Virus record (IMG/VR): IMGVR_UViG_3300025759_000107
Coordinates: 1-58,231 of that record
Reading direction: 5' to 3' (one strand)
From: a virus
DNA: 58,231 nt
Part shown: positions 9,534 through 52,622 of the stretch, piece by piece
How positions within the stretch are numbered: the stretch's first letter is position 1
Layout: every line of letters begins with the position of its first letter
Program-made: the position numbers and the translations under genes
Notes under the pieces: model-generated
Databases searched by the model: none
Seen by the model: the letters and a program-made list of their open reading frames with translations, nothing else
Told to the model about the DNA's origin: nothing

Positions 9534-12500
9534 ATGGCTTATTCCCCAGTCGATATGAGACCGCCAGTTGGTGCAGAACCGGGCTTACCGTTGACATCTA
9601 TTGTTGATGCAACAGGTACATTTCGAAACACATTCTCTCCTTCACAACCACCTACAACAAACGACTTACTGCTAAACATTTCTCCCCCATCTTTGAACAG
9701 TGAAATGGGTTGGTTGGAGATGTCTCAAATAGAAGGTGTAACAGTAACAGGTTCTCATCATGATGCCTCAGCAACAAGTGTTTCAGTTTCGGGAACAGTC
9801 ATGACTTTCACCGAAGCAGGTAGGTTCGGGGCGCACAGTAGAAGAACTGAAACAGGTAATCAACCTGCTAACCATACTTTTTCTATCAAGAGAGATACAA
9901 CTTCAATCCCTGCCACAGATAATCAGTTGACTCTGGGTAGAACTACAACTAACGGTGCTCCTTTGAATATCGCTCATTACGCAGCAACAGTTGTTCCATC
10001 GAACGGACTTGGGATTTCATTCGGCTCGTTTCACAACACTGCGTATTCAGTCATTGGTTTCGTAGCAGACCGCTCAGATAAATCGGTAAGTGATATGGCT
10101 ATGTTTGATAGAGCCGAAGAGAGTGGACCAACTTCTTCATACTGGGGGATTAACTTGGGTGCAAGACAAACCGTATTGGCTAGTGGTACATCGTTAACAT
10201 CCCCAACAAGCACTGAATCTGCTACTGAAACTTCTAACATTCTGACTAACTATTCGACTATTCAAGTACCGAGAGTTATTGAAGACAGTGATGCTTTACC
10301 ATATTCTATTGGTGCAGTTGAAAGAGGCAATCATGTTGTCGTCGATTCATGCGGTCTTGTTGGCTACGAAGGTGCGTTAGTTGTTACTGCGTTTCATAGT
10401 GTGCCAGAGGATGAAAACGATGAAACATATTCTGGGTTGAATGTTCAAGTTCATTCGGGTCAAACTCTACTAAGAAATGGTAAGTGGTATAACGATTCTA
10501 CCTTAGCCACTGGTTCACGATATAACTACACAGACGGTACGCCTATATTTCCACTACAAGAAGCACTAGGAACTGCTGCTAGACGCTCTGGGAAGTCTGG
10601 AGATACCAATGACAATCAAACTACATTTATGACAGGAAGAAACATTAGAACCGCTCCTAGTACGGCTTTTGGAACTCAAACAATCAGCAGTCGAACATCT
10701 GTTCAATCTAAGGCTAGTGGTAGAATATATGGAGACATAACAGGAACAGGTGCTTGGTCTAAGACAACTGCAATTTCCTCAACCTTCCTTGCTGATAAAG
10801 TTCCGACCCGTGTTAAAGTTGTTCCTTCGATTCTTCGTTATGAAGATGTAACAATCGAGGGGGTTGCATTTCGAAAACCAATTGTTGACTATCATATTCT
10901 AGTATCAGTTGTCAATACCCCGAAAACGGTTAGAGCAAGTGGGACAGTTGACTATACAAGAGGCGCACCAACATTAGCCCAGTCTCACATTCCAGCAAAC
11001 TATTCTGAAGATAGTGTAACAATATATCATGCTATATTCAGACTCGACCCAACACTTACAGGCGTTAAATTAGGAACTACGGCCCAATCAAAACAAGTAA
11101 CACAATCTGCATGGGGGTTACATCAGATGACACCATTCAGACCCTTAGCAAATCCATCATGGGCGAGAATACCAAAGTTATGTGGAACAATAGAGCCGGG
11201 TGGATTCTATCAACAAGGTGGCATTTCACATCTATGGGACGCAGATGCTTACGGTGGAGAGTTGCTTGTAGGGGCAGATGCTATCGACGCATCGGACTTC
11301 AACTCGGCAGTTTGGGGTAACGGCCAAGTATGGGCTGACGGGGGCAGTGGAGCAGCAGGTAATCCTAGAGGCAGCGAACTACTACTATTCAAGTGGACAG
11401 CCAACAATGACGCTCTATACACCGAAGATGCTACCACAGCAACAGACAATCCATTGTATAATCTATTAGTGGGTAAGTCTGAATCTCTCGATGCTAGAAC
11501 TGGCATTTCTATCTCTGAATATATGTATCAATGGACTATCCATGATTGGGTGTTTCCTCAAGTCGAACTAATGAGATACTTAGGTCAAGAGAGAAAAGAC
11601 CGGGCCAAACACCCGGACCACACATCCTACGCAGAATCGTTGCTTCATCCGACAATACATTGTTCGTCATTGCGAATCATGGAAGATGGAAAGATGATGA
11701 TGGCTGCGATTCACCGAGATATGATAAGTAATACTGGGGAATATCCGAGTCCCGACATTAACCCTTGGCCTTGGAATCCCGATGGTTTTTCCAATCCATG
11801 CCCGCCGGGTTTCTATTACGATGATGCTGCTAAAACATGCAACCCGATACAAGATGAACAGAGCGACCCACTTAGCGGCACTGGTGATGCTGTTTTACAG
11901 CATCCAGAGCCAGTGTTGAACTTCGGCAGTACGAACAACTACACTGGAACAAACTTCGGTGCTGTTCCACCTTGGGGGCAGATGGTTGCTAACTCAAGTG
12001 CAAGAAGTCTGATTCTATTATGGTCGGACACCCCTGCAAAGAATGGCAGGGTGCGTGAAGGTAAGGCAATGTTCGACATCAAATATTCAACAGTTGACGG
12101 GGCTAGTAAAGGAACACAAAACTGGATAGAAGATGATACGTGGTGGAGTGGTTCTCGAATTGCTTATTGGTTTCCCGAATCAGCACAAAGGGCGATACCG
12201 ATTACTTACGGCTCATATCCAGAAGGACGTTGTTCTCATGCGGTCTTACCTAAGTGTCTCCCTCACATACTAAGTGATGGTTCTATTTTACATGGTTATC
12301 CTTACAGACAAATGACTGACCGTGTTTCTTATCTTGGGTATGACGACATAACCACAGAGAAAAGTGGAATAGATGCTTGGGCTGTTGATAGATACCAACA
12401 TTTGAGAAAGACTAGGTTCATTCCTACAACCATTGGTTTTGCTGATTTCGGCTCATCTGCGAGTCCATTCTGCGAGTTTGGGTTCAATGGGTGGGCTTTC

Positions 12501-14975
12501 CCTGCGGCTCTGTATAACACACGTTCCTATGACACTACGTCGTATTCAGAGGGCGACACTGACGCACCATTCTCAGACTTACTATCAACAAATGCTGCTA
12601 GAAAATTAGTCGGCCCTCTCGGTGGGTTCTCACATTTCGGCCCTCTTCATTACGGTCTTTCATCTAAAGCACACCCGTACAGAACTGATAGAACTTGGAA
12701 ACAGGTTCACGCTGGTCTAGGCTACGACATTCCTTTACATCTACTTGCACCCGGTCAAGTTCACGTCCGGGCTAGAGCAGGTGGAAAAGGAACTCTTGAT
12801 TTAGAACTTGAAACTCCATTCTCAAGAACGGACACCCTTCACTTAGAAGGTGCGGCAGGTTTGTTATCTGGTTTTGATGCAGCAGGTGATGGTGGGACTA
12901 TCGGTCAATCTTACTTACGCACTAATCTATGGGCTGATACAGCAAGGAGAACAACTAACAGTGGTAATGTTCTTTACAATGATATTCTATTACCAAATGA
13001 GTTAATGGGTGGCCCATTCGTAAGTGGTAATTCTTTATCTGCATTCTGGCTTAATCACCCAACAGACCACTTCCACGCAGGGGCTATCCCTGTTATGACA
13101 GGCAGTGATTACGACTGGGATAAAGTCTACACTGCCGGTTATCCACATGTAACATTGGCTAGAGCACAGGAACTTAGTAAGAAGGACTGGGTTGCTGTAT
13201 CTGAACAATTGAAATCATCAGTCGAGGTACACGTATCTAATCACGTAAGACCATATTGGGATAGTGGTAGTATAGTCAATGCAACAGGAATAATATCCTC
13301 ACAGGGTAATGTTACTGCGAATAGAAAAGAAATGAATGACAGTGCGAGTGCTACCGGAGCAACTGACGGCTATCTTGGCAAGGGTCAAAGAATATTGAGA
13401 ACACCCGATGGGACATTGCATCAATTTACAATTGCTCCATCGACTAAGGCAAGCCGAGGGAATCAACCTACGTACGTACATTACACCAAACCACCGGGTT
13501 CAGATTTATTCTGGAATCGACACGCCGAACAACTTGGTGCAACAACAACTGGTCTTGATGAAGTCCTACTTATTTCAGAGATAGGTAGTTCTGCGCTTGA
13601 CACTAATGATAAGATATACGGAGCAGCATTCGCCTCAGACAGTCTAGGAACAATACACGCTGTTATCGAAGTAGCAAGGGATGATTCTGCTAGTATAACA
13701 GGCGCACCGATACGCAGACTCTTCTATACATATGCAACTAGAAACATAGTCGCATCTTCACCGGACCACGTGTATAAGTGGGACTGGACGACTGTTACAC
13801 CAATCAACATCTCAGCAACTAACAATCCATACACCACTGGAGATAACATGATGCAACCGACTTTAGTATGCGACTCTAAGGACAGGCTTCACTTGTCTGC
13901 GGTTCATTACCGGGAGAGTGCCTCAGAATATTCAGTCGTCTATTCAATCAAAGAACCGAATGCAAGTTGGGTTGCACTTCCGAGCGGTAGTCCAACAACT
14001 TGGGATGATGGAAGATGGGTTTCAGTTGACAACACGACATCAGGTAGAATAGACTCACCTAAGTTGGCTCTTAGGGGCGACGACATTCCTTTCATCTTCT
14101 TTAGAAAAGATAACAACACTGCGAATGCTAAAGTGTATGCTTGTCAAGGCGACTTAGGCTCTGGCACAGTGCATACTTTCGGAAGTCCACTTTACTTACA
14201 TGAAAATGATGCTGATGTATGCGACTGGTATGATGCAATCATAAACGAAGAAGATAGGATATATGTAGTCTGTAGGTTAAGTAAAGTCGATGACATTGCT
14301 GCTAACGATGTAATGATAACTGCCATGAATGCTAGAGACGTATTGTCATCAACAACAAAGACTGTAAAACATATTTTTCATCCAATCTCCGGCGACCCAT
14401 TCGATATATCCGACATGACAATGACAACTAATGGAAATGGGAATATTCACATCGTCGTTAGATGGCGTAGTAACCTACAATATACAACAGTGCCTACTCC
14501 AGAAGTTGACGGTGCTGCACCGCTTAGTTGGCCCGCAGTAGTTGACTCATCACCTATGACTATTGCAGGTACATCCGGTGTATGGACACAACGCTCACAC
14601 TTCATGGAGATATGGCTTCCTTCTTTCGAGTTTGATGCTGCTACTGCTGATGAGAATGTTATCCGTTCTATGAATGTTCGTTGGCTATCTGTTCCATCAG
14701 TAAAGACTGACGGGACTGAATGGACTATACTAGGTGCGGCTGAAACTCTTGCAGGTAGTGAGGATTTCACTCACGATGCACCACAGTTACGTTACCAAAG
14801 ATTCTGGGGACATAATGCGGCAGACCTAGACTTGGCTTGGACGACTAACCCATTGGCTTGGTACAGAACTCCACATGCAGGGTCGTCTTTGTACTGGCCT
14901 TGGAGTGGGGCTTTGATAACCCGCATAGGCGACCAAGATGCTGTGAGTGGTACTACTAACCGTCATGGGTTTTAG
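9534..14975 (+). CDS. Giant tail/baseplate protein, possible beta-propeller C-terminal half
   Basis: An 1813-residue protein starting 3 bases after the previous stop. The first two thirds are beta-rich with no recognised motif. From about residue 1290 to 1640 it shows repeats of the type DSLGTIHAVIEVARDD, DSKDRLHLSAVHYRE and NGNGNIHIVVRWRS, which resemble BNR/sialidase-like propeller blades. Such domains in tail tips often bind or cleave glycans; no catalytic triad was identified, so binding is the more cautious reading. It shares size and style with the upstream 1875-residue protein and probably belongs to the same tail tip. Confidence 0.65.
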   Translation: MAYSPVDMRPPVGAEPGLPLTSIVDATGTFRNTFSPSQPPTTNDLLLNISPPSLNSEMGWLEMSQIEGVTVTGSHHDASATSVSVSGTVMTFTEAGRFGAHSRRTETGNQPANHTFSIKRDTTSIPATDNQLTLGRTTTNGAPLNIAHYAATVVPSNGLGISFGSFHNTAYSVIGFVADRSDKSVSDMAMFDRAEESGPTSSYWGINLGARQTVLASGTSLTSPTSTESATETSNILTNYSTIQVPRVIEDSDALPYSIGAVERGNHVVVDSCGLVGYEGALVVTAFHSVPEDENDETYSGLNVQVHSGQTLLRNGKWYNDSTLATGSRYNYTDGTPIFPLQEALGTAARRSGKSGDTNDNQTTFMTGRNIRTAPSTAFGTQTISSRTSVQSKASGRIYGDITGTGAWSKTTAISSTFLADKVPTRVKVVPSILRYEDVTIEGVAFRKPIVDYHILVSVVNTPKTVRASGTVDYTRGAPTLAQSHIPANYSEDSVTIYHAIFRLDPTLTGVKLGTTAQSKQVTQSAWGLHQMTPFRPLANPSWARIPKLCGTIEPGGFYQQGGISHLWDADAYGGELLVGADAIDASDFNSAVWGNGQVWADGGSGAAGNPRGSELLLFKWTANNDALYTEDATTATDNPLYNLLVGKSESLDARTGISISEYMYQWTIHDWVFPQVELMRYLGQERKDRAKHPDHTSYAESLLHPTIHCSSLRIMEDGKMMMAAIHRDMISNTGEYPSPDINPWPWNPDGFSNPCPPGFYYDDAAKTCNPIQDEQSDPLSGTGDAVLQHPEPVLNFGSTNNYTGTNFGAVPPWGQMVANSSARSLILLWSDTPAKNGRVREGKAMFDIKYSTVDGASKGTQNWIEDDTWWSGSRIAYWFPESAQRAIPITYGSYPEGRCSHAVLPKCLPHILSDGSILHGYPYRQMTDRVSYLGYDDITTEKSGIDAWAVDRYQHLRKTRFIPTTIGFADFGSSASPFCEFGFNGWAFPAALYNTRSYDTTSYSEGDTDAPFSDLLSTNAARKLVGPLGGFSHFGPLHYGLSSKAHPYRTDRTWKQVHAGLGYDIPLHLLAPGQVHVRARAGGKGTLDLELETPFSRTDTLHLEGAAGLLSGFDAAGDGGTIGQSYLRTNLWADTARRTTNSGNVLYNDILLPNELMGGPFVSGNSLSAFWLNHPTDHFHAGAIPVMTGSDYDWDKVYTAGYPHVTLARAQELSKKDWVAVSEQLKSSVEVHVSNHVRPYWDSGSIVNATGIISSQGNVTANRKEMNDSASATGATDGYLGKGQRILRTPDGTLHQFTIAPSTKASRGNQPTYVHYTKPPGSDLFWNRHAEQLGATTTGLDEVLLISEIGSSALDTNDKIYGAAFASDSLGTIHAVIEVARDDSASITGAPIRRLFYTYATRNIVASSPDHVYKWDWTTVTPINISATNNPYTTGDNMMQPTLVCDSKDRLHLSAVHYRESASEYSVVYSIKEPNASWVALPSGSPTTWDDGRWVSVDNTTSGRIDSPKLALRGDDIPFIFFRKDNNTANAKVYACQGDLGSGTVHTFGSPLYLHENDADVCDWYDAIINEEDRIYVVCRLSKVDDIAANDVMITAMNARDVLSSTTKTVKHIFHPISGDPFDISDMTMTTNGNGNIHIVVRWRSNLQYTTVPTPEVDGAAPLSWPAVVDSSPMTIAGTSGVWTQRSHFMEIWLPSFEFDAATADENVIRSMNVRWLSVPSVKTDGTEWTILGAAETLAGSEDFTHDAPQLRYQRFWGHNAADLDLAWTTNPLAWYRTPHAGSSLYWPWSGALITRIGDQDAVSGTTNRHGF

Positions 14976-15034: not shown

Positions 15035-15493
15035 GAAGCAAGAGAATACTGGCAGACACGAAGAGAAGGAAAGAAAGAAGAAGGCGAGACGTACGCTGAG
15101 TACATCGTTAGAGAGTTAAATATCTCATTAGAGCATTTTGGCCGCTCTGAAAGAGCCGAAGTTAGAGACGACCATGTTTACTTCTGCGGTATGACTGTCT
15201 TAGAACACTGGGCTGACTGGTGCGACGACCGCCCTGCATCTTGGGTATGTTCCGACCACACTAACCCTAATGAAACTGTTATCTGGAATCACCGCGACCA
15301 CGAAGGTGAAAAATGGTCTGGTAGTTTCAACGTATGGCATCAGTTCGTAGTATCAACACTCTGCCACATCGAAGGCTGTGGTTGGACTGCTGACTATCGA
15401 GACGAGGACGCTTGGGTGTTCGACCCTATCGCTAACCCACCGTATGAAGGCCACACAATAAGCGTGCAAGAATTGGCTTCACTTATGGCTTAG
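15032..15493 (+). CDS. Hypothetical acidic protein, 153 residues
   Basis: I do not recognise a family. The protein is acidic and rich in Trp and His, with four Cys spread through the middle (FCGMTV, WVCSDH, TLCHIEGCGW), so metal binding is possible. It has its own class II promoter and is separate from the tail operon. Its stop overlaps by 4 bases with the end of groEL, which comes from the other strand. Confidence 0.75.
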   Translation: MEAREYWQTRREGKKEEGETYAEYIVRELNISLEHFGRSERAEVRDDHVYFCGMTVLEHWADWCDDRPASWVCSDHTNPNETVIWNHRDHEGEKWSGSFNVWHQFVVSTLCHIEGCGWTADYRDEDAWVFDPIANPPYEGHTISVQELASLMA

Positions 15494-17064
15494 ACTTCTG
15501 CGACAAGCACTTCGGTTGTTAGGACTAACCCTGCAATCGAAGCGGCTGTCTCCAGTGAGTTTTTGACAACCTTGGCAGGGTCAATAACACCCTGTTCAAT
15601 AAGGTCTCCAAACTCCAAAGTCTTGGCGTTTAGACCGTAGTTAGAGTCATTCATTTCTATGACCTGCTCTAGTGCCTCTGAACCATCAACCCCTGCGTTA
15701 AAACACAACTGATGAAACGGCTCTGCTAGTGCATCATGTACCATCATCATACCTAGCCATTCGTCGCCTTCATGGTCGTCTGAGGCATCTAGTATCTCAT
15801 CTCTAGCACGTAGATACATGATAGAGCCACCTACTACTATCCCCTCTTGTAAAGCGGCTCTAGTAGCGTTCAATGAATCATCTACACGTGCGATTCTTTC
15901 TTTCATCTCTGCCTCGGTCTTACCACCGATGTGTAATACTGCAACACCGCCGGAAATCTTACCTGCTCTTGCTCTCAATGCCTCTGCTTCCCAATCAGTT
16001 TCAGCGTCTTTCGATTGAGCGATAAGTGCTTCTTGTCTTTTCCGAATATCACTCTCTGTACCACGACCACCAACTATTGTTGTTTTCTTCATCGAACATG
16101 AGATTGAAGACGCACCACCTAAAGATTCTATTCCGTTCCTTTGAGTTGACATTCCCTTACTGGAGAAAATCGGAACTGCTCCTACAACCGTAGCAATATC
16201 GGTGAGTATTTCTTCACGTGAATTACCAAATGAAGGTGCTTCTACTGCTGCGACTTCTAAGATACCACGTGAAGCATTAAGGGCGAGCGTAGCCAAAGCC
16301 TCACCTTCCATCTTGGTAGCGATAATCAAAAGTGGTCTTTTCATCTCTACTGCATAATTTAGAACATCAACAATTTCTTGAGCGGTTCGAATAGTTTCAT
16401 CAGTTACTAAAATCAAAGGCTTCTTCATCGTCGTTTGTTGTTTTTCCGAGTCGGTAATAAAATGTGAACTAAGTAGCCCCTTAGTAAACTCAAGTCCGTC
16501 AACAATTTCTAGCGTCGTATCGAGACCATTCGATTCTTCAATCGAGACAATCCCATCTCTTCCTACTGTTTGGAATGCTTGTGAAATCAGAGAACCAATT
16601 GCTTCATCATTATTGGCTGCTATTGTTGCTACATGAATCAAAGACGTGTCGTCAACATCGGAAGCCGCATCTTCGATTGACTTAACTGCTATCTCAACTG
16701 CCTTATCGAATCCTTTCTTAATGTGTATTGGATTGCGACCTGTTTTCATTTCAACTAATCCTTTATTGCATAATGATTGAGTTAGGATAGAGGCGGTAGT
16801 TGTTCCATCCCCTGCATTATCTTGAGCCTTACTCGCTGCTTCTTGAATAAGACGTACACCTAGATTCGCATATGGGTCTTCTTTCATATCAATGTCTTTA
16901 GCAATAGTAACACCATCATTAATTACAACAGGTGAGCCATATTGTCTTTCTAGTATTACAGTTCTAGCAGCAGGTCCTAATGTTGGCTTAACTGAATTGG
17001 CAACTTCATTTATTCCTCTCATTAATGCTTCTCTTGCTTCTTCACCATATATTGACTTCTTCAT
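15490..17064 (-). CDS. groEL: Group I chaperonin GroEL (HSP60)
   Basis: The 524-residue product is close to the usual GroEL length of about 545. It carries the group I N-terminal pattern KPTLGPAARTVIL (26-38), NDGVTIAKDI (49-58), and the ATP-binding signature GDGTTTAS (85-92). It lacks the Gly-Gly-Met tail of bacterial GroEL, ending TTEVLVAEV. GroEL forms a ring in which proteins fold with the GroES lid and ATP hydrolysis. Its start overlaps the groES stop (ATGA), so the two are co-translated. A bacterial-type chaperonin rather than a thermosome in a virus with archaeal replication genes is notable. It likely folds virion proteins, since it sits inside the tail module on the opposite strand. 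Confidence 0.96.
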   Translation of the reverse strand: MKKSIYGEEAREALMRGINEVANSVKPTLGPAARTVILERQYGSPVVINDGVTIAKDIDMKEDPYANLGVRLIQEAASKAQDNAGDGTTTASILTQSLCNKGLVEMKTGRNPIHIKKGFDKAVEIAVKSIEDAASDVDDTSLIHVATIAANNDEAIGSLISQAFQTVGRDGIVSIEESNGLDTTLEIVDGLEFTKGLLSSHFITDSEKQQTTMKKPLILVTDETIRTAQEIVDVLNYAVEMKRPLLIIATKMEGEALATLALNASRGILEVAAVEAPSFGNSREEILTDIATVVGAVPIFSSKGMSTQRNGIESLGGASSISCSMKKTTIVGGRGTESDIRKRQEALIAQSKDAETDWEAEALRARAGKISGGVAVLHIGGKTEAEMKERIARVDDSLNATRAALQEGIVVGGSIMYLRARDEILDASDDHEGDEWLGMMMVHDALAEPFHQLCFNAGVDGSEALEQVIEMNDSNYGLNAKTLEFGDLIEQGVIDPAKVVKNSLETAASIAGLVLTTEVLVAEV

Positions 17065-32831: not shown

Positions 32832-33129
32832 CATGGTCTCAGACTGGTGCTAATAATCGCACTGAAATGTTGGCTTTTACGAACTCTTCCGTGTCTGGAC
32901 AGCATAGTGGTATTCATCTTACGAAGAGAGACGACGGCATGTGGGTTGTGTTTCACGAAGGAGCAGAATACGTTATGCCAGACAGGACAGGAACAGAAGA
33001 AGCAGCACGTGAGTTTCTAATTTCCATGCTTGGTGGCAAAAAGTTATCTAATAGAAACGAGGATAAACCCTTTATCCGGTTCAATGACCACGAAAGAGGG
33101 GCATCCTTCGATGTGTGGCAGGTGAAATA

Positions 33130-33130
<1 letters not shown>
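32822..33130 (+). CDS. Hypothetical protein, 102 residues, tandem paralogue B
   Basis: Starts [15 protein letters not shown], with [14 protein letters not shown] and PFIRF in the positions matching the previous protein. Its stop TAG shares one base with the GTG start of the first fibre gene, so it is translationally linked to the fibre operon. Confidence 0.65.
33121..33125 (+). promoter_or_regulatory. Shine-Dalgarno deciding the GTG start of fibre 1
   Basis: GGTGA stands 4 bases before GTG 33130, which itself overlaps the upstream stop. A GTG at 33115 lies before this site and is less likely. Confidence 0.5.
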
Positions 33131-36531
<3,401 letters not shown>

Positions 36532-36541
36532 GGTGTGATGA

Positions 36542-39343
36542 ATGGCAGATAATTTCAAAGTTGACGGAGATATAGAAGTCGAAGATGGTATAAAGTTCGG
36601 AGATGGAACTAGACAAACAACCGCTTCTAGTGGAATAGCAGGGCCTACAGGACCGGCAGGGCCTACAGGTCCAACGGGTTCTACTGGAGCGACAGGACCG
36701 GCAGGTGCAACAGGTCCAGCAGGTTCGACAGGACCGACAGGTGCAACAGGACCGACAGGGCCGACAGGTCCTACAGGAGCAACAGGTCCTACAGGAGCAG
36801 CAGGGCCACCCGGTCCTACAGGTCCGACTGGTGGAGATGGACCAACTGGTCCAACAGGTTCTACTGGGCCTACAGGTTCTACTGGACCGACAGGAACAGC
36901 CGCAGGGTTCGGTACACCTACCGCAAGTACAGGACCAATAGGTGTAACAGCGTCCGGTCCTAACACAGCCAAAGTTTTTGCTTTTAGTATTCCTCAAGGA
37001 GACACCGGAGCGACAGGTGCAACAGGGCCACCCGGCCCAACTGGTCCGACAGGGGCTACTGGACCTACTGGAAATACAGGTCCAACTGGAAATACAGGTC
37101 CAACTGGAGCGACTGGTCCAACAGGTGCGACAGGTCCACCCGGCCCAACTGGTGCTGTTGGTCCAGCAGGTAGTGTTGGTCCAGAGGGTCTAGTTTGGAA
37201 AGGTACATGGGCTACTTCGACTGCTTATGCAGTTGACGATGCTGTTTATTATTCCGTTGAGGAATCATCTTACATTTGTATTCAAGCACATACATCGGGT
37301 GCAATAACTCCGACTAACACATCTTATTGGAGCATCTTAGCAGCACAGGGAGATACAGGTCCTACAGGTCCGACAGGGGCTACAGGTCCAGCCGGACCAC
37401 CCGGCCCTACTGGTGGCACTGGTGTAGCCGGACCACCCGGCCCAACCGGAGCGACAGGGCCTACTGGAGCAACAGGTCCGACTGGTAGCACTGGACCAAC
37501 AGGAACGGCAGCAGGGTTTGGAACACCCACAGCAAGCACTGGTCCTATTGGTGTGTCTTCAAGTGGTCCAGACACCGCTAAAGTATTCGCTTTCTCGATA
37601 CCCGCAGGGGATGTAGGCCCAACAGGTGCAGCAGGTCCACCCGGTTCTACTGGTCCTACTGGCCCTGCTGGTGCGGCAGCAGGTTTCGGAACTCCTACTG
37701 CTAGTACAGGTCCTATTGGTGTTACAGCAAGCGGTCCTAATACCGCTAAAGTATTCGCATTTTCTATACCACAGGGAGCAACTGGCGCAACAGGGCCTAC
37801 TGGGGCTACTGGTCCACCCGGTCCTACCGGACCTACTGGTGCTACAGGACCTACTGGTCCTACAGGACCTACTGGTCCTACAGGTGCTACCGGACCTACT
37901 GGTGCTGTTGGTCCTACTGGAGCGACTGGTCCGGCTGCCGGATTTGGAACACCCACAGCCTCTACCGGACCTATCGGAGTAACCGCTAGTGGACCGGACA
38001 CGGCTAAAGTATTTGCATTCAGCATACCTGCGGGTGCTACTGGGCCAACAGGTGCTACTGGAACAGCAGCAGGTTTTGGAACTCCAACCGCTTCTACTGG
38101 CCCTATTGGAGTAACGGCTAGTGGACCGGACACAGCGAAAGTCTTTGCCTTTTCAATACCTCAAGGTGCGGCAGGTCCTACAGGACCAACAGGGCCTACT
38201 GGTCCTATTGGACCAACCGGACCTGCGGGGGCTACAGGACCTACTGGTGCTGCGGCTGGCTTCGGCACTCCGACAGCCTCAACTGGTCCTGTTGGAGTAA
38301 CGGCTAGTGGTCCTGACACAGCCAAAGTATTTGCTTTCTCTATACCTAGTGGTGCAACAGGTCCAATAGGGCCAACAGGTGCTACTGGTCCTACAGGTCC
38401 GGCTGGTCCTACAGGTCCGGCAGGGCCTACTGGACCTACAGGTGCTACTGGGCCAACCGGCCCTGCCGCCGGATTTGGAACACCTACCGCAAGCACAGGT
38501 CCAATAGGCGTAACTGCCTCTGGACCAAATACTGCTAAGGTGTTTGCATTCTCGATACCGGCGGGTGCTACTGGACCTACTGGTCCACCCGGTGCAACAG
38601 GACCTACTGGACCTGCCGGACCTACTGGGCCACCCGGTGGAACAGGGCCAACAGGACCTACCGGACCAACTGGTTCTACAGGTGCTACTGGACCTACCGG
38701 ACCAACTGGACCTGCCGGAGCGACTGGACCTACCGGACCTACCGGACCAACTGGTGCAATTTCATGGGAAAATGTTTGGGCTGATGGTAATTACTCCATA
38801 GGTGATGTTGTTACTCACGAAGGCGGTACTTACATTGCGGTGGCTGGTGTAACTTTTGGCGAAAATCCACCCAATGATTCGAGTAGATGGCAAACATTAG
38901 CAACACCCGCTAAGTTTTTCATTACAGCAGAATGGAATGACCAATATTATTCATCAAGTCTTAGAAACGGTTGGAGATTTTCTTTTGGTAGTGGTATCAA
39001 TAACGTAAACAACACTGATGGTTCAACAAATCCAATGGGTGCAGTAATACCGTTTGATTGCGAACTTAAGGAAATACGTTGGTTCGTAGGTAATGTCGGT
39101 GCGGAAACCGGGTCTACTTCTTTCATTCACAAGATTACAAAGAACGGTTCGGATTTAGCAACAACATATTCTTGGGCTTCAACCGGAAGCGGTGGTACTT
39201 CCTATACAAGAACCGCATCACCGAATCTTGGCTTTGTTGCAGGTGATACATTCAATCTACGATTAACTAGCCCGTCATCATATGTAAGTACAAATCAAGT
39301 GGGAAGAGTAAGAGTAGTGTTTTATTTTGAAATGAAGGAGTGA
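36542..39343 (+). CDS. Collagen-like tail fibre protein 2
   Basis: A 933-residue fibre preceded by a GAGGTG Shine-Dalgarno. It opens with a short tail-attachment-like segment ([20 protein letters not shown]) and then Gly-Pro-Thr collagen blocks. Seven copies of the [14 protein letters not shown] module are interspersed. Two CBM5/12-like modules occur, one internal ([20 protein letters not shown]) and one near the C-terminus ([20 protein letters not shown]). The last 140 residues form a beta-rich tip ([20 protein letters not shown]...). It shares modules with fibre 1 and probably arose by duplication. Role: fibre or appendage for glycan contact. Confidence 0.92.
39337..39343 (+). promoter_or_regulatory. 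Shine-Dalgarno of fibre 3
   Basis: GGAGTGA stands 5 bases before ATG 39349 and overlaps the stop of fibre 2. It favours ATG 39349 over GTG 39340. Confidence 0.6.
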
Positions 39344-39348
39344 TAAAA

Positions 39349-39957
39349 ATGAGCAGAAGTTTTGAAAGTGAAGAATTAGCAGAGAAAAGATTGAAAGCAA
39401 CCCAAAGAGAATGGTTGAGAAGAATACAAAACGCATACGGTGAGAACTATTATGATACTTTAACCGAATCAGAGAAAGCCGAACTTGACACTTTTAGAAC
39501 TGCTATGAAGAACTTATCTTCTATTGCTACTAAATCGACTTTTCATGATGATGGTGTATTCCCATCTATCCCATCTTGGTTCGACTATGGAGAGTTGGAA
39601 GAGGAACAAGGTGTGTCAAGAGCAGCAGCAGGTCCTACAGGGCCTACTGGTCCGACTGGTCCTACTGGCCCTGCCGGAAGTAACGGAGCAACAGGTCCAC
39701 CCGGTCCTCAAGGTGCTACTGGACCTACCGGACCTGCGGGTGCAACTGGCCCTCAAGGTGCTGCTGGAGCGACAGGACCTACTGGTCCACCCGGTAGTGG
39801 TGGCGGCGGTGGTGAGATTTTAGTAACGGGTGATGGTGGAAGAATAAATACGTCTCTTACTGAAATGTCAATTGACTCAAGAAACGGAACAGTATCGTTT
39901 GTTTTTGCAGATGGCACAAGTCTTGTTAATGTTCCAGCAGATTACATTAGTGGTTGA
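39349..39957 (+). CDS. Short collagen-like protein 3
   Basis: A 202-residue protein with a helical, charged N-terminal domain of about 90 residues ([17 protein letters not shown]...), a central collagen block of about 60 residues (GPTGPTG..., GPQGATG) and a Gly-rich linker GSGGGGGE before a short beta C-terminus ending [10 protein letters not shown]. The helical head may attach to the virion. Third gene of the fibre operon. Confidence 0.88.
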
Positions 39958-46221: not shown

Positions 46222-46311
46222 GGGGTTAGTGATATGGGTTAATTGCTTATAGTCTTTCGCCTATATACTTCTGACTTATATGATAATCAAACTATAGAAA
46301 ACTTTAATACC
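46222..46311 (+). promoter_or_regulatory. Promoter module copy A (no downstream ORF)
   Basis: Box 1 GGGGTTAGTGATATGGGTTA at 46222, box 2 TTATAGTCTTTCGC at 46247 (25 bases on), then ACTATAGAAAACTTTAATACC at 46291 with the TATA-like CTTTAATA at 46302 (55 bases after box 2). The next gene has its own module, so this copy appears to drive only the GC-rich hairpin region. Confidence 0.65.
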
Positions 46312-46329
46312 TAAGCCTTACCTCGTAGG

Positions 46330-46410
46330 GGGTGGGCGGGCGGCTTCAAGGGCCGCAACCGAACCCACGCGGGCGGTTCTCGCATCCAGCCCCGTTAACG
46401 AGATGAGATG
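46330..46410 (+). ncRNA. Candidate small non-coding RNA downstream of module A
   Basis: About 80 bases, very GC-rich against AT-rich flanks. Nested stems: GTGGG 46332-46336 with CCCAC 46364-46368 outside, GCGGC 46340-46344 with GCCGC 46352-46356 inside. A second stem pairs CGCATC 46381-46386 with GATGCG 46407-46412. No ORF. The 3' end is not defined. Confidence 0.35.
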
Positions 46411-46468
46411 CGGGTTTATAATCTTTCGCTTATATCCTTTCAAGATATATACTACAAAACCTTTATAT
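46391..46468 (+). promoter_or_regulatory. Promoter module copy D
   Basis: Degenerate box 1 (GTTA..GA.ATG pattern) at 46391, box 2 TTATAATCTTTCGCTTATAT at 46416, TATA-like CTTTATAT at 46461 (45 bases after box 2). ATG 46493 is 31 bases after TTTATAT, so leaderless. Confidence 0.6.
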
Positions 46469-50042: not shown

Positions 50043-50083
50043 GAATTATACAACATATAGTTGTGATTAATATTACCTAGTTG

Positions 50084-50116
50084 TTATATAGGGGTATCTT
50101 CTCCGCTAGACTGATG
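50084..50116 (+). promoter_or_regulatory. Class II leaderless promoter
   Basis: TTATATA at 50084, CTCCGCTAGA at 50101 (17 bases on), ATG at 50114 (30 bases). It excludes the TTG at 50081 as a start. Confidence 0.7.
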
Positions 50117-50524
50117 ACAACCCAAGCACCAACCCTAACCGGAACAAAGCACGCACTAGATAGAGCCTCAATCAGACTGGTTGAAGGCGAGTTAAAACAG
50201 GCTATTGCAGTTAGCCAACGCGAATGGAATAACGCATATAACGCCGGTCATAGAGCCGTTGCTGTCGTAGCACTAGACCTAAGCCAACGCCGAATGACTG
50301 ACAACACTGGTTATGAATCGAATGGAGACATGGTAGTTTTAATCATAGTTCAAGGTCAAGTCAAGACCGCATACTTGAGAAGGTCAACCCAACCAATGAA
50401 TAAAGCATGGGTTCAAAGAATCGGTGCATCTCATCAAGGCGGACTTTCAAAAGTAAAATGGGCGCGAGGAACTGAGGCAGCCAAAGCAAGAAATACAAGA
50501 GCATACAAAAAAGGGAGAAGGTGA
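50114..50524 (+). CDS. Small basic protein, 136 residues, possibly DUF4258/toxin-like fold
   Basis: The opening TGTKHALDRASIRLVEGELKQAI and the later strands MVVLIIVQGQVKTAYLRR recall small RelE- or DUF4258-type folds, where a KHA...R start and a final VVT.Y strand are common. The C-terminus is strongly basic. A toxin-like or RNA-binding role is a guess from this pattern. No antitoxin gene is evident. Confidence 0.45.
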   Translation: MTTQAPTLTGTKHALDRASIRLVEGELKQAIAVSQREWNNAYNAGHRAVAVVALDLSQRRMTDNTGYESNGDMVVLIIVQGQVKTAYLRRSTQPMNKAWVQRIGASHQGGLSKVKWARGTEAAKARNTRAYKKGRR

Positions 50525-50579
50525 AAACCTTCTTCCGATTCTTGTATGAATAGAGCCAATCTGAGAGGCTCTTTTCTTT
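50513..50579 (+). terminator. Two tandem hairpins with T-run
   Basis: First stem 50513-50522 with 50527-50536 (10 bp, GAAA loop) spans the stop codon. Second stem AGAGCC 50552-50557 with GGCTCT 50567-50572 leads into TTTTCTTT. Confidence 0.7.
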
Positions 50580-50768
50580 AGCCAATGGTTCGGAGTCTAG
50601 TTATAGAAACAACGGCCTGTATGAGCCTCTAAATATAGAAATATAGGCAACTACTCCCTCTACTACTCCCCCTATACCCTACCCCTATAATTGATGACAG
50701 CCATTTTCAATTCTGAAATGCACCGCATACTGGTTTCGCTCGCTATGAGTCAATTTTTCTTATGAGCA

Positions 50769-50820
50769 CTATATACTTCTTTTCTTACAAGAAAAGTCAA
50801 CTATAGAAACATTGATAAGG
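50769..50820 (+). promoter_or_regulatory. Promoter module copy H (no downstream ORF)
   Basis: CTATATACTTCT at 50769 and AACTATAGAAACATTGATAA at 50799 match copy A (46261 and 46290) with the same 41-base distance from CTATATACTTCT to the TATA-like segment. No box 1 found. No ORF follows for 850 bases. Confidence 0.55.
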
Positions 50821-50837
50821 GGACACCCTGTCCCATC

Positions 50838-51300
50838 AAACAGCCGAGTCGGACTCGGTGGCTAGAACATGGTAATACATGTGGACTAGCGGGAATGAAT
50901 GTGGAGAACCACGAATGCGTCAGTGTATTGCGGTAGTCGTGCGTCTCAACAGGGTCTTGGCAAGAACAGTCATGTAAAGCCCGCGAATGTTGAGGGAGAG
51001 TTCTATGGTTGAGGGAGAAATCCCCCTAAGACGCTCATCACATCTCTGAGGCCGAGTATAAGGTAAGGGGGTGTGTTATGAGAGACTGGTCCAGAAGCGT
51101 GAGAGAATGTAGGCATACATTAGGCTCATGTCGCAACCCACATTCACCCCACTAAATCGTGGGGGGTGTTCACTAGAGCGTAGGTAGTTCCATCTTTGAT
51201 AGTCGACTAGAACGACTTAGATAGGAGTCGTAAGAACCTCGCCGCCCATCTAGTAAATGTGAAGTAAGGAAGGTGCGATTGGCAGCGTACCCATGCCCCC
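50838..51300 (+). ncRNA. Candidate long structured non-coding RNA
   Basis: About 460 bases, GC-richer than its flanks, with many stems: AGCCGAG 50842-50848 with CTCGG-T-GGCT 50854-50863; CACCCCAC 51145-51152 with GTGGGGGGTG 51159-51168; ACGACT 51212-51217 with AGTCGT 51226-51231; CCCCCT 51022-51027 with AGGGGG 51066-51071. Module H gives a plausible start near 50838. I could not match it to RNase P, SRP, tmRNA or a group I or II intron by eye. Confidence 0.4.
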
Positions 51301-51310
51301 CACCCCTACC

Positions 51311-51371
51311 CTATTTTCTATACTATATACTATTATAATTAATTAAAATTAAAATTAATTAAATTAATTTG
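51311..51371. other. AT-rich tract, possible origin unwinding element
   Basis: About 60 bases with almost no G or C, built of AATTAATT-like units. Such tracts often mark replication origins. Placed next to inverted repeats and in the largest non-coding gap. Confidence 0.35.
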
Positions 51372-51386
51372 AAAGGTTATGGGGGG

Positions 51387-51418
51387 ACACACACACAACA
51401 GGGGTAAGGTGTGTGTGT
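51387..51418. repeat. Inverted repeat ACACACACAC / GTGTGTGTGT
   Basis: Perfect 10-base arms 51387-51396 and 51409-51418 with a 12-base loop beside the AT-rich tract. A shorter form of the same type is at 19407-19431. Confidence 0.55.
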
Positions 51419-51489
51419 GCTCAAGGGGGTCTCTCTCCAGTCGAATTAATTTATTTTTTATCTAAGTAGGCTCGTAGTGTATCGTTTTT

Positions 51490-51526
51490 CCCCTAAATTA
51501 ATTCAAATTAATTCGAGGGGCTTTTT
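51490..51526 (+). terminator. Terminator-like palindrome CCCC-AATTAATT / AATTAATT-GGGG plus T5
   Basis: CCCC 51490-51493 pairs with GGGG 51517-51520 and AATTAATT 51496-51503 with 51506-51513, then CTTTTT. It could end a transcript from module H or act as an origin palindrome. Confidence 0.5.
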
Positions 51527-51660
51527 CGCCACATAGGATGATAACACTTTAGGTTTTAGAATACTATATATCAGAGTTATAGGCTTTAATCAAAAAATCA
51601 GTACCAGAATTACTAAATATACCATCGGAATTAATTTTGCCAGTTATAGGCATGAAAAGA

Positions 51661-51667
51661 TATATAT
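51661..51667 (+). promoter_or_regulatory. TATA-like box of the glycosylase-family gene
   Basis: TATATAT starts 32 bases before ATG 51693. The sequence TTCCTCGGAGAAG before the ATG resembles the leader of ardC (TTCCCCTAACTCGGAGAAG). Confidence 0.5.
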
Positions 51668-51692
51668 TCGATGCCTTCCTCGGAGAAGTCGC

Positions 51693-52622
51693 ATGAACAT
51701 ATTTGTCCTAGACACAGACCACAAGAAGAACGCCAAATACCACGCCAATGTCCACGTAAGTAAAATGACATTGGAGACCGCCCAAATGCTATGCACAGCA
51801 GTGCGAGTATGTATGGAAGACTCTGGCTTCCACACGCACTTCATTGAGAAGACTCTGCCTAAAGCAAAGTCCGGCAAAGCATACCGACGCTCACATCCGA
51901 ACCATCCCTGTACTATATGGGCGAGAGAGAATCGAGCAAACTATCTCTGGCTATGTAGTCTAGGCTATGAGTTATCTAAAGAGTTTACACGCAGGTATGG
52001 TAAAGTACATGCATGTCATACAGTAATAGAACAATGTGCTGCATTATCTCATTACATTCCACAAGACTTAGACAACCCAAGACAAATTACACCATTCGCT
52101 CAAGCAATGCCGGACGAATACAAGGACGAAGACGCAGTAGTAGCATACCGCCGTTATTACAAATCTAAGTTTGACGCTGGAATGAAAATGGAATACCCAG
52201 ACAATAAGACACCATATTGGTTGCATATAGACGAAGTGAAATCTGAATACAGTTTTTCGGAACGTGCTAGTGGTAAATCAAAAGAAGCATGGGCGAGAGC
52301 AAGACAAATACAATTAGAATACTGGTTAGAATGGGCGTGGGAGAATCTTCATCATTATCAAATCAAACACGCTTACCATCGTAGTAATGTTCCAATGTTT
52401 GACATGGGTATGGCTTTCGACGAATGGAAAAAGGTTCGAGGTGAATCTCCGACCAACGAACCTTGGTCGCCATCGAAGACAGAAGCGAAGCACGAACTTA
52501 GAGTCATGCTAGACTACATGAGGGTGAACCACATGAAACATCCAAAAAACATAAAGAAAAACTTGACAAATGTCAAGACTGAACGTAGGGCGGGTAGACG
52601 TTATCCATTCGTTGTGAAATAA
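51693..52622 (+). CDS. Phage pyrimidine-dimer DNA glycosylase family protein
   Basis: The first 170 residues match a family frequent in marine phages, annotated as pyrimidine dimer DNA glycosylase: MNIFVLDTDHKKNAKYHANVHV, KMTLETAQMLCTA, HPNHPCTIWARENRANYLWLC and MPDEYKDEDAVVAYRRYY. The second half (about 180-309) is basic and not recognised. If the annotation holds it repairs UV damage, useful in surface water. The activity for this exact family is less certain than for T4 DenV. Confidence 0.75.
   Translation: MNIFVLDTDHKKNAKYHANVHVSKMTLETAQMLCTAVRVCMEDSGFHTHFIEKTLPKAKSGKAYRRSHPNHPCTIWARENRANYLWLCSLGYELSKEFTRRYGKVHACHTVIEQCAALSHYIPQDLDNPRQITPFAQAMPDEYKDEDAVVAYRRYYKSKFDAGMKMEYPDNKTPYWLHIDEVKSEYSFSERASGKSKEAWARARQIQLEYWLEWAWENLHHYQIKHAYHRSNVPMFDMGMAFDEWKKVRGESPTNEPWSPSKTEAKHELRVMLDYMRVNHMKHPKNIKKNLTNVKTERRAGRRYPFVVK

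Follow-up and report, generated by a model that had tools for sequence, protein, structure and literature searches.

We analysed a 58,231-nt stretch of viral DNA (hereafter the window), in which the largest gap among the listed genes spans 1168 nt (50525-51692), between genes at 50081-50524 and 51693-52622. An earlier note, made from the letters of the window, had singled out this gap as the largest gene-free one and as a GC-richer stretch followed by AT-rich DNA, both of which hold: the GC content is 0.46-0.54 across 50800-51300 and goes down to 0.24-0.30 at 51300-51400. The gap contains two separable things, an RNA gene on the left and an origin-like DNA element on the right. Downstream of the RNA and on the same strand, the gene at 51693-52622 is related to phage pyrimidine dimer glycosylases, and the replication genes encoding RFC and a family B DNA polymerase (PolB) stand just downstream of the locus.

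The 58-kb contig also encodes a tape measure protein. The nearest relatives of its RFC are archaeal RFC small subunits and, among the phage records listed, its PolB is nearest to those of haloviruses (roughly 24% identity); judged from these affinities and the tape measure protein, we classify the virus as a tailed virus of archaea. Going by the habitat and the genes it carries, our guess at the host would be Poseidoniales, and a host search with the viral chaperonin as query returned a weak match (23%) as its best. This divergent chaperonin is encoded at 15490-17064 on the opposite (-) strand, and 33115-39957 encodes long proteins with collagen-like repeats, one of which matches a carbohydrate-binding module.

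A search with the downstream protein led to two relatives, L001 (82.8 kb) and L002 (18 kb), both alignable over the entire gap with DNA identities to the window of roughly 80% and 87%, respectively. The third close contig (L003/L071) stops short of the gap. The more distant L074 (80.7 kb, RFC 65% identical) came from an RFC search, and the yet more distant L096 was recovered by its inverted repeat. The RNA alignment thus comprises three copies, those of the window, L001 and L002.

Promoter and ends of the RNA gene

Upstream of the RNA stands a promoter box, CTATATACTTCT (50769-50780, + strand), which is the left copy of a ACTATATACT repeat, is found as CTATATAC in the window, L001 and L002, and recurs 31 nt 5' of a CTATAGAAA at 46261. 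It is followed by a TATA box, ACTATAGAAA (50800-50809, +), whose motif is common to the relatives and to other units: ACTATAGA-AC-TTNA is the same or near-identical in L001 and near-identical in L002, and the TATA motif also occurs 5' of the window units at 46292 and 48245. The motif ACTATAGAAACATTGATA, upstream of the RNA, likewise has near-identical forms in L001, L002 and these two units. With CTATATAC and ACTATAGA-like boxes upstream of the RNA in three of three viruses, the region is promoter-led, as the note had proposed, and by sequence the promoter is of the same TATA type as those of the virus's protein genes.

From the promoter position and the archaeal spacing between TATA box and transcription start, the RNA would begin near 50825. 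It would end near 51310, where conservation stops at a pyrimidine/T-rich tail (51308-51321, +) that is T-rich in all three viruses and, by what is known of archaeal termination, is likely to be the termination region. The TATA-like right copy of ACTATATACT (51322-51331, +; direct repeat D11) is the copy that L074 retains as its only one.

These ends bear on whether the RNA could be a long, riboswitch-like structured leader of gene 51693-52622 and its operon, as its position upstream of that gene on the same strand would allow. We consider this quite improbable, as the RNA and the gene are separated by the T-rich tail, the second TATA-like box and roughly 390 nt of separately conserved DNA, the gene is present in L074 where the RNA is absent, and no riboswitch in Rfam matches.

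Similar signals occur elsewhere in the window. A second promoter, ACTATAGAAAACTTTAATACC, followed by roughly 115 nt of GC-rich, gene-free and well-folding DNA, lies at 46290-46440, possibly a second small RNA gene; G002 and the window differ in its hairpin. The module GGGGTTAGTGATATGGGTTA recurs upstream of several units (46226, 48174 and 48954), with a stretch resembling TTTATAGTCTTTC and then a TATA box after it.

A conserved, many-armed RNA fold

The RNA gene (50825-51310, +, roughly 490 nt) is conserved in L001 and L002, and its common structure comprises 96 pairs in 16 helices and three domains, with 99% of the alignment cells paired over the three sequences, a percentage that is inflated relative to the slid control since these very sequences guided the drawing of the structure. 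The stronger measure, even with as few as three sequences, is the number of pairs at which both partners changed: we observed 10 such double changes compared to 3.8 ± 1.6 in shuffled alignments, with none of 500 shuffles reaching 10, and their number fell to 0 or 1 when the partners were slid by 1-3 columns. Random mutation of the stems in relatives, which the note had named as evidence against its proposal, is therefore not what the relatives show. Constant pairs lie outside this covariation test, whose carriers of the RNA number three. Because eight pairs are G-U in one or more of the sequences when read on the + strand, compared to two A-C cells that would be G-U on the opposite strand, we take the + strand to be the RNA.

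The double changes are spread over the three domains. In the 5' domain (50844-50890, +), which holds hairpins H2 (50844-50858) and H3 (50861-50890, loop GUAANA), three double changes rewrite the stem of H3 (ACAUG/CAUGU, ACUCG/CGAGU and ACUUG/CAAGU). The central multibranch domain (50897-51145, +) is closed by GAAUGUGG/CCACAUUC and has the arms H5, H6, H7, H8 and H9, with double changes in H7 and H9 and an additional arm of roughly 53 nt in L001. The 3' domain (51159-51303, +) is closed by an 11-bp helix, GUGGGGGGUGU/AUGCCCCCCAC, which also has double changes, and its long arm H12 (51170-51262, +) carries three, reading GCG.AGGU/ACCUCGC, GGA.UGGU/ACCGUCC and GCG.GGGU/ACCCCGC in the three copies. 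Hairpin H13 (51272-51291, +), with the invariant loop UUGGCAG, was misaligned by the program, and a hand alignment keeps five of its pairs in L001. A candidate helix at the 5' end, H1, is not preserved in L001 and probably shares bases with the promoter.

The three copies share no long conserved reading frame, as indels are present and frames are broken, and the longest stop-free stretch on the + strand of the window copy is 42 codons. Having both compensatory changes and no conserved frame, this is a structured non-coding RNA gene, and the note's proposal of one is strongly supported by the compensatory changes, the lack of an Rfam match and the RNA's own promoter.

Chance folding of GC-rich, gene-free DNA, with no functional RNA at all, could appeal to the energy tests, in which the single sequence folds with an energy only slightly out of the ordinary (z -1.94) and column-shuffled RNAalifold energies are as low for a coding control strand as for the RNA region. 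The latter test is non-discriminating, and we do not rely on energies for the structure; compensatory change does discriminate, and the ten compensatory pairs (0-1 when slid), together with the conserved loops and promoter, already contradict this reading, to which we give next to no weight.

No known family accounts for the RNA, as the note had judged by eye. Rfam 15 gave no family match in the window at the gathering score, and permissive searches (E up to 10 on the region and up to 5 on L001) gave chance matches only. Neither Rfam nor ARAGORN matched group I or II introns, RNase P, SRP RNA, tmRNA or riboswitches, Rfam gave no match to TnpB-guide RNA or ribozyme families, and no tRNA was found in the window, G001 or G002. 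Covariance models of the central part (R1, 50966-51145) and of the 3' domain (R2) recovered the three known copies and no further member among 47 virus records. Searches for DNA similarity in phage and plasmid collections found none, exact RNA motifs among viral contigs matched L001 and L002 only (six further 16-mer matches were chance), and the RNA motif was not found in genome contigs. Within a partial literature search, no paper came to light that describes an RNA of this kind from a virus of archaea.

One candidate diverged copy, L077 (G001), was rejected: a 29-nt 5' match there has an E value of 0.45, and R1 and R2 are blank. L077:1168-1545 (- strand; G001:48167-48545) is a 378-nt gene-free structured stretch (z -2.8) beside an extra open reading frame, at a place where G002 has a short gap.

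An empty site and an origin-like element

L074 keeps both flanks of the RNA, ACCGCATACTG...CGCTACG on the left and the AT tract and inverted repeat on the right, and lacks the RNA together with its promoter; a single ACTATATACT stands at this empty site, where the window has a copy to the left and another to the right of the RNA. Since the models find three copies only and L074 has an empty site, the RNA is an accessory unit that can be cleanly gained or lost. Such exact presence and absence, the 10-bp direct repeat on the flanks and the patchy distribution are also what a selfish or mobile RNA, derived from an intron or ribozyme and inserted between ACTATATACT copies, would leave. We nevertheless hold that origin to be very unlikely, given that no family of introns, ribozymes or TnpB-guide RNAs matches, no gene is interrupted, the RNA is single copy and its promoter is of the viral type.

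To the right of the RNA, an AT tract (51320-51373) is conserved in L001, L002 and L074, and an inverted repeat, GGGGGG-ACACACACAC...GTGTGTGTGT with a GGGG loop (51381-51419; DNA hairpin z -4.2), is shared with L001, L002, L074 and L096, that is, with more viruses than have the RNA. Its 10-base ACAC/GTGT arms, ACACACAC/GTGTGTGT, lie at 51387-51396 and 51409-51418. Seven of the window's eight AATTAATT sites flank it (51337-51636), a clustering to be compared with at most two per 300 bp in any of 60 simulated sequences. One of them forms a CCCC-AATTAATT-GGGG-TTTTT palindrome (51490-51526) that is kept in L001; since L002 has CCAG in place of the CCCC arm, the palindrome does not qualify as a conserved terminator.

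The AT tract, the ACAC/GTGT repeat and the CCCC palindrome with its T5 thus all lie where the note had placed them. Its suggestion that the parts form one long RNA with a terminator fails, as L074 keeps the right-hand parts without the RNA, the TATA-like ACTATATACT stands between the parts and L002 does not keep the T5 palindrome intact. As to its alternative, an origin with a regulatory RNA, an AT-rich tract and clustered repeats, conserved in relatives, are found at 51320-51640, so that a replication origin is plausible there by sequence, as an element separate from the RNA. The cumulative GC skew that the note had recommended for detecting an origin makes no turn at this locus in the window, G001 or G002. 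The element would fit either a candidate origin or a candidate protein-binding site.

Repeats of the ACACACAC...GTGTGTGT type also occur in two contigs without protein similarity to the window (L098:8625-8662 and L099:3251-3288). Directly 5' of the ACAC/GTGT repeat in L096, the stretch 12257-12530 has the arms of a perfect 15-bp inverted repeat, GTTGCGGAGCGTCAC/GTGACGCTCCGCAAC, at its ends and is possibly another structured RNA (z -2.1).

The main rival to a trans-acting RNA is one linked to the origin, acting in cis at the AT tract to prime replication or to regulate its initiation, in the manner of plasmid origin RNAs. The predicted transcript reads toward the AT tract and inverted repeat and ends just before them, and the locus lies just upstream of RFC and PolB. 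The presence of the origin-like element in L074 without the RNA, which makes the two independent, argues against such a role, as do L096, where the inverted repeat is present and the RNA models find nothing, and the missing GC-skew switch; we regard it as unlikely.

An accessory viral RNA and its nearest known counterparts

The data show that this archaeal tailed virus has a discrete non-coding RNA gene at roughly 50825-51310 (+). With a probability of roughly 0.6, we favour the reading that the product of this gene is a free, folded accessory RNA acting in trans during infection. The virus would transcribe the RNA while infecting its host, and the free, stably folded molecule would aid infection either as a scaffold to which proteins bind or by assembling from RNA only; it would be an accessory factor rather than a part of basic genome replication. 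We infer action in trans from the RNA's own promoter, its end before the next promoter-like box, its dispensability in L074 and its many-armed architecture, that is, from its independence and fold. The window and L074 form a presence/absence pair that offers a natural comparison for the function of the RNA, and the origin-like element, now separated from it, can be studied alone.

Viral and plasmid origins with AT tracts resemble the right-hand element in its AT tract, clustered AATTAATT sites and conserved inverted repeat, but the element lacks a GC-skew switch and the RNA, to judge from L074, is no part of the candidate origin. For the RNA itself, the closest parallels are GOLLD and ROOL, large ornate RNAs of bacterial phages that form cages and whose function is not known (PMC12286853). 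Like GOLLD, it is virus-encoded, large, ornate and non-coding, with a conserved and a variable part (PMC12286853); like ROOL, which occurs in phages and prophages with a function likewise not known, it is a large structured RNA with many helices (PMC12286853). Both are encoded in tailed viruses or proviruses, as is the window RNA, given the tape measure protein, PolB and RFC on the contig. Whereas many GOLLD members exceed 800 nt, the window RNA has roughly 490, and whereas GOLLD and ROOL often lie near tRNA islands, it has none nearby (the window, G001 and G002 yielded no tRNA), matches no Rfam family and belongs to an archaeal virus. The cages of GOLLD and ROOL are RNA-only nanocages. OLE is also a large ornate RNA (PMC12286853), but it is bacterial with proposed protein partners, unlike this viral RNA without an Rfam match. 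By model match and tRNA context, the window RNA is thus a member of neither GOLLD nor ROOL, which are nearest to it in kind. We tentatively suggest, at somewhat less than even odds, that it represents a new class of RNAs, large and ornate, made by archaeal tailed viruses, an archaeal counterpart of GOLLD and ROOL unrelated to them in sequence, which would assemble or bind host machinery during infection. If true, an unrelated RNA of comparable complexity in an archaeal virus would suggest that RNAs of this kind are retained independently by viruses from different domains.
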